DNA from: Deltaproteobacteria bacterium RIFOXYA12_FULL_61_11 | GTDB taxonomy: Bacteria > Bdellovibrionota_F > JAHFAK01 > YA12-FULL-61-11 | Direction: 5' to 3' | Assembly: GCA_001799195.1 (NCBI GenBank) | Contig: MGSU01000256.1 | Span: forward strand, 1-6,604 | Length of the DNA stretch: 6,604 nt | Part shown: positions 801 to 1,081 of the stretch, piece by piece | Layout of the letters: every line of letters starts with the position of its first letter | Numbering within the stretch: the stretch's first letter is position 1 | The notes under the pieces: generated by a model | Seen by the model: only the letters and a program-made list of their open reading frames with translations | The model's database searches: none | What the model was told of the DNA's origin: nothing | Program-made: the position numbers and the translations under genes

Positions 801-883
801 GCGAGCACCTTCGCGGTGAGCGGAGCAGGACCATGGCTCAGCGCGCGCGAATTGGCAAGAGGGAAGGGAAGGTGGTAGGTATT

Positions 884-1022
884 CCTTCAGTCTTGGGTGT
901 GGGGTAAGGGGTCCTGTCGCCTCTCACCCCCACCATGCTCATGCTTGCGCGTGGCGGGGGACCCCCGTCGGCGCCACCCCAAGGTGGTACGAACAACCTG
1001 CAATCCACCCCGAGACTGAAGG
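884..1022 (+). other. 139-bp structured element: long terminal inverted repeat enclosing three hairpins
   Basis: The ends are exact 10-bp inverted repeats, CCTTCAGTCT at 884-893 and AGACTGAAGG at 1013-1022. Pairing continues inward: 894 with 1012 (U-G wobble on the plus strand), 895-897 with 1009-1011, a bulged T898, then GTGG 899-902 with CCAC 1005-1008. That makes about 18 pairs. Inside are three candidate hairpins: GGGGT 908-912 with ACCCC 926-930; GTGGC 951-955 with GCCAC 973-977, enclosing GGGG/CCCC; and AGGT 982-985 with ACCT 996-999, enclosing GU/AC around an ACGA loop with one G-A mismatch. The result is a closed three-branch fold. The wobble becomes A-C on the other strand, so a plus-strand RNA is slightly favoured. 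It ends 59 bp before the hydrolase ATG. It could be a 5' leader RNA, a small RNA, or a dispersed REP/MITE-like repeat. No known riboswitch was recognised. Confidence 0.5.
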
Positions 1023-1081
1023 CATTCCGCTGGTAGTGCAGCGAGGTTGACAGGCAGGGGCTCGGATGGAAGGATCCCCGC

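Follow-up and report, generated by a model that had tools for sequence, protein, structure and literature searches.

A promoter-associated, non-autonomous transposable element with a conserved structured core in Deltaproteobacteria bacterium RIFOXYA12_FULL_61_11

We found that the window (the complete 6,604-nt stretch of contig MGSU01000256.1 analysed here) holds a copy of a high-copy non-autonomous transposable element that is placed 19–20 bp upstream of -35 boxes, and that the interior of this element is a conserved structured element, present in multiple copies but without the MITE frame in at least six genomes of other families. Taken together, these data make it very probable that the window carries a copy of a promoter-targeting MITE with a widespread hairpin element nested in it as its core. 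The element can be seen as a variant of known repeat classes (MITE, BOX, ERIC, RPE), while the core itself is absent from Rfam.

The element copy in the window

The element lies in the gap between two divergently oriented genes, and this gap is non-coding, as an earlier note on this DNA had stated. Its features and those of its surroundings are (window positions and strand):

297–800, minus: DUF4442-domain gene, flanking
853–858, minus: TTGCCA, -35-like box of the DUF4442 gene, 20 bp outside the left end of the element
871–878: left target-site duplication GGTGGTAG (8 bp by the rule of the family; 7 of 8 positions match)
879–1027: element copy, member of the family, in the non-coding gap
879–897, plus: left terminal inverted repeat GTATTCCTTCAGTCTTGGG
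908–980, plus: conserved 73-nt core, common to genomes G131, G132, G437, G635, G652 and G732
909–918, plus: invariant 5' motif GGGTCCTGTC, basal helix and internal loop
918–921, plus: 5' strand of helix P2, CGCC, with the covarying G-C/A-U pair 919–972
927–960, plus: apical hairpin P3, CCCCC A CCATGC ... GCGTGG C GGGGG
927/928: site of the first 54-nt double-hairpin module of longer copies
950/951: site of the second 54-nt module of longer copies
970–973, plus: 3' strand of helix P2, GGCG, in register with 918–921
973–979, plus: invariant 3' motif GCCACCC
1009–1027, plus: right terminal inverted repeat CCCGAGACTGAAGGCATTC
1029–1036: right target-site duplication GCTGGTAG, with one extra base on the right side
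1047–1052, plus: TTGACA, -35-like box of the hydrolase promoter, 19 bp past the right end of the element
1082–1927, plus: alpha/beta hydrolase gene, flanking (start at 1082 or 1109)

The exact 10-bp arms at 884–893 and 1013–1022 described earlier are present, within an imperfect inverted repeat of 878–897 with 1009–1028 (85% complementary); the element bounds proposed from them, 884–1022, have to be corrected to 879–1027, with the near-duplication directly flanking. The plus strand is predicted to fold with a minimum free energy of -78.3 kcal/mol (mean of dinucleotide-shuffled sequences -58.6 kcal/mol; z -4.7; 0 of 200 shuffles as low); for the minus strand z is -3.3. Both the inverted repeat and the fold of the window element are thus confirmed.

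The good fold and the position in front of the hydrolase gene would fit a structured 5' leader or riboswitch of that gene, as had been suggested, but this reading is highly improbable, as the element occurs in at least 82 places preceding unrelated genes and a promoter-like box stands between element and gene at the fixed spacing of the family. Because of this -35-like box, the window copy lies upstream of, and not within, the hydrolase transcript. The alternative pairing of GTGGGG with CCCCAC (at 929–934, not 928–933 as reported), from which a switch had been proposed, involves a spacer of low conservation (73% column identity) and finds no comparative support. A stand-alone small RNA is a further possible reading of the window element.

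Copies, termini and target-site duplications in the host genome

The host genome is a draft assembly of 4.64 Mb in 342 contigs and is 87% complete. The BLASTN check for genomic copies, as proposed in the earlier note, was carried out with window positions 870–1040 as query against this genome and returned 123 candidates, among which the 40 that were scored are full or partial copies with 82–96% identity. The apical pattern CCACCATGCTCATNCTTGCGCGTGG was found in 82 places with up to 3 mismatches (0 for the reversed pattern), and these core-bearing places are a lower bound for the genome. Many contigs terminate in or adjoining an element (e.g. C26, C114, C166, C167, C236 and C336); as the assembly breaks at element copies, the true copy number is probably higher than counted.

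The aligned ends of the elements read GTAnnnnTTCAGTCTTGG...CCAAGACTGAAnnnnTAC, in short form GTAAnCnTTCAGTCTTGG, and 98 such termini were found in the genome with up to 2 mismatches (1 for the reversed-pattern control). When the two flanks of each copy were compared at every length from 3 to 14, a single clear signal appeared at 8 bp, where mean identity reaches 0.52 versus 0.26 in permuted pairs. An 8-bp duplication with no more than one mismatch is present in 22 of 73 copies, while 0.33 are expected and at most 2 were seen in 200 permutations. Copies bearing these duplications are the younger ones. Terminal inverted repeats common to the copies and a target-site duplication of fixed length, together with the copy number, bear out the first half of the earlier suggestion of a ‘MITE/REP-like repeat’. 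The second half does not hold: a REP/RAYT repeat is a palindrome of 20–40 bp with a GTAG or CGTC tag at one end (PMC3733652), whereas the core spans approximately 68–117 nt and is bounded by GGGT/ACCC.

Element lengths are modular: most copies have 148 bp, others about 202 and about 255 bp, through the addition of 54-nt double-hairpin modules. These modules are hairpin pairs in which pairing is kept through 5 positions changed on both sides (covariation score 0.264; no more than 0.105 when slid). One copy (L122:2090–2265) is chimeric, with the 5' half of module 1 fused to the 3' half of module 2, as would be expected if modules recombine with each other. In a subfamily (L033, L044, L059, L091, L099) the ends are longer, roughly GTAnnCCTTCAGTnAAGGnGGATTTCAGTTTTGGG, and look like one terminal repeat lying outside a second one. 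Next to partial copies with a lone terminus, the neighbouring open reading frames tested were ordinary genes or had no assignment, with no transposase among them.

Placement at promoters

Genes were called with a hexamer-based model trained on long open reading frames of the element-bearing loci, and by this model none of 67 copies lies inside a predicted gene. The flanking gene pairs (n = 59) are divergent in 29 cases, leftward in 20, rightward in 9 and convergent in only 1. Of 34 occurrences of TTGAC in flanks that run towards a gene start, 12 have their first base exactly 19 nt outside the element (Poisson P ~7e-17); flanks facing a stop show no such TTGAC spacing peak. A -35-like box lies 19 or 20 nt outside the element in 29 of the 64 elements that face a gene start (mean 4.7, maximum 10 at other offsets), and in 16 elements it is accompanied by a -10-like box at normal spacing. 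The two ends of the element face promoters about equally often. Thus, the family keeps a fixed spacing of 19–20 bp to sigma70-type -35 boxes.

Such a placement could also arise by selection after insertion: elements would insert at random and only copies just upstream of promoters would be kept, e.g. as a portable upstream activating sequence. That every examined copy is intergenic, and that the spacing is the same in old and young copies, would fit this explanation. However, the spacing is exact to 1–2 bases, also in copies with intact duplications (-35-like box at 19 or 20 nt in 7 of 20), and transposases are known that target positions 15–17 bp upstream of -35 boxes (PMC3942029). We therefore regard selection as rather unlikely and favour targeted insertion, in which a transposase acting in trans would recognise the terminal repeats and insertion would occur at the upstream edge of sigma70-type promoters, the spacing being set at insertion time.

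Search for a mobilising enzyme

The element is too short to encode a transposase, and neither an autonomous relative nor a transposase with matching termini was found in the 87% complete draft assembly. Similar behaviour is known from ISLre2/TnGBS and ISKra4, which produce 8–9 bp duplications, insert upstream of sigmaA promoters at a constant distance and have promoters facing both ends if their repeats are almost the same (PMC3942029). The element shares with them the duplication size, the fixed promoter spacing and the use of both ends, but their distance to the -35 box is ~13–17 bp compared to 19–20 bp here, and they encode their own Mutator-like transposase (PMC3942029), while none was found for the element of 148–255 bp. 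Models of IS256, ISKra4 and ISLre2 gave nothing above cut-off in the host genome; the element is therefore described as behaving like this promoter-targeting family and is not filed as a member of it.

Mobilisation of the MITE frame by an IS66-type instead of a Mutator-like transposase is a sub-question of our preferred explanation, and we consider it possible, if doubtful. IS66 repeats start with GTAAGCG and come with 8-bp repeats (PMC11946415), with which the GTAA/GTAT tips and 8-bp duplications of the element would be compatible, and the genome contains one clear IS66 transposase. The remainder of the element's repeat, however, was not found around this local IS66 copy. We are also not aware that promoter targeting has been reported for IS66. 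At a contig end (L130:1707–3459, contig C91), an IS66-type transposase gene appears to interrupt another transposase-like reading frame, which possibly ends in GTATCCCGG.

Conservation and covariation of the core

Among the host copies, mean column identity is 96% in the core (908–980) and 0.95–0.96 in the inner terminal repeats, with lower values of 0.73–0.80 in the spacers between them. Over the full alignment, mutual information peaks at the G-C/A-U pair of helix P2 (48 G-C, 28 A-U and 1 A-C among all copies), and on a tree built from non-core columns each partner changed 3 times. As the G-C/A-U switch co-travels with another site in the core, an exchange of whole cores between copies could be an alternative to repeated compensation.

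Across genomes, the invariant part is GGGUCCUG(U/C)C...G(C/U)CACCC; variation is seen in the closing pair, in P2 and P3 and in the apical loop. In a cross-genome alignment (A7), 12 of 20 pairs show double changes, with 95.1% paired and a covariation score of 0.476 (no more than 0.075 when slid); an alignment of mostly new copies (A8) gave double changes in 11 of 20 pairs and a score of 0.417 (no more than 0.097 when slid), although both were aligned to the model's own structure and hence lean towards it. In the internal loop, the positions x and y of CCUG[x]C and G[y]CACCC (window 917 and 974) are U..C or C..U in 115 of 119 copies, i.e. they covary yet would not form a Watson–Crick pair on either strand. 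Both states occur within G437, G635 and G652, and C..U alone in G132. Counts of G-U pairs favour the plus strand as RNA (26 versus 10), which is opposed by a core loop that is purine-rich on the minus strand. A CsrA sponge acting via minus-strand AGGA loops was considered and dropped, because the core loop base varies freely (A, C, G or T).

The core in other genomes

A search of genome contigs with a 20-nt apical pattern gave three single matches, in Alicyclobacillus, Rhizobiales and Bryobacterales, which were followed up by a profile search and taken as chance. A first covariance model of the core (R1) matched only the host genome, G131 and G132 among 145 genomes. With a second model, 2 of 368 genomes of the phylum of G131 were matched (G131 with at least 12 copies, G437 with at least 11), and with a third model 6 of 386 genomes, namely the host, G131, G132 (10 copies), G635 (5), G652 (10) and G732 (2). 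The G+C content of loci holding copies ranges from 0.35 to 0.75. No Rfam family matched above its gathering score; the strongest hit below it in the window had E 2.2. When the literature was searched for the invariant motif, no paper on a bacterial repeat was among the matches listed, and nothing was found in the viral contigs, plasmids and phages searched.

No target duplication was detected around the copies in G131, G437, G132 and G652, so that mobility there rests on interiors that are nearly identical while the flanks are unrelated. In G131, GGGT/ACCC marks the limits of the shared sequence: three copies are the same within these limits and show no relation beyond them. The flanks of individual copies are mutually complementary in G437 (0 of 5000 permutations as low), G132 (P 0.004) and G635 (P 0.01), i.e. 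the copies lie at the tips of unrelated inverted repeats. One copy in G437 (L178:1501–1589, flanks AAAATGATGA and TCATCATTTTTTTT) sits at the tip of an apparent intrinsic terminator hairpin with a T run, and several G132 copies closely follow stop codons. Several copies in G131 and G437 lie in frame within genes, and in each of these two genomes one copy is found in the linker between the domains of mutL, again in frame (L151:1501–1587 and L170:1501–1588, respectively). The GGGT/ACCC edges, the lack of duplications, the inverted-repeat tips and the in-frame copies elsewhere suggest that the core is an independent hairpin element, which the MITE of the host genome captured; in an ancestor, the hairpin element would have landed inside the palindromic MITE and then have been copied along with it.

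Alternatively, the core might be a functional host RNA (a regulatory RNA or ribozyme) that was spread incidentally by transposition. The strong covariation over 7 genomes, the invariant internal loop and its U..C/C..U swap would agree with an RNA function, but the core is multi-copy and very patchy in its distribution, its contexts differ (upstream of promoters in the host, in genes in G131 and G437, beside stop codons in G132), and its orientation relative to neighbouring genes is mixed. We judge this alternative improbable. For a hairpin element captured by the MITE, the core fold would most likely be a recognition structure, as folded single-stranded DNA or RNA, for a mobilising or protecting factor. 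With slightly less than even confidence, we propose that the core belongs to a family of mobile structured elements that spans phyla and of which it is the first to be seen, that it is recognised by an enzyme that inserts hairpins at hairpin tips, and that it has been captured here by a promoter-targeting MITE. The basal internal loop and the non-Watson–Crick covariation may, on the same tentative footing, mark the recognition structure.

Comparison with known repeats

We know of no cross-phylum core in BOX elements, and to our knowledge the RPE, ERIC and bcr1-type families are each confined to one lineage. RPEs lie in frame inside genes, as do some of the core copies in G131 and G437. Like Rickettsia palindromic elements, ERIC and bcr1, the element is a short structured repeat spread within one genome, as reviewed for MITE-like palindromes including ERIC (PMC10969869); unlike them, the core is met again in many families, its internal loop invariant and its stems covarying. 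BOX of Streptococcus pneumoniae resembles the element in being non-autonomous and present in many copies, with a variable number of hairpin modules and a large predicted fold, but differs from it in sequence, as judged by Rfam and the published description (PMC3049150). Furthermore, BOX is overrepresented between convergent genes (PMC3049150), whereas the present element avoids convergent gaps and sits at promoters.

Implications

Dozens of insertions upstream of promoters, positioned with base-level precision, make the MITE frame of the host genome a natural archive of such events. With it, promoter-directed transposition becomes testable in a new lineage, and the insertions provide a promoter map for the phylum of the host. 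The occurrence of a conserved fold outside Rfam in multi-copy repeats of unrelated bacteria points towards an as yet unnamed machinery for mobilisation or binding.
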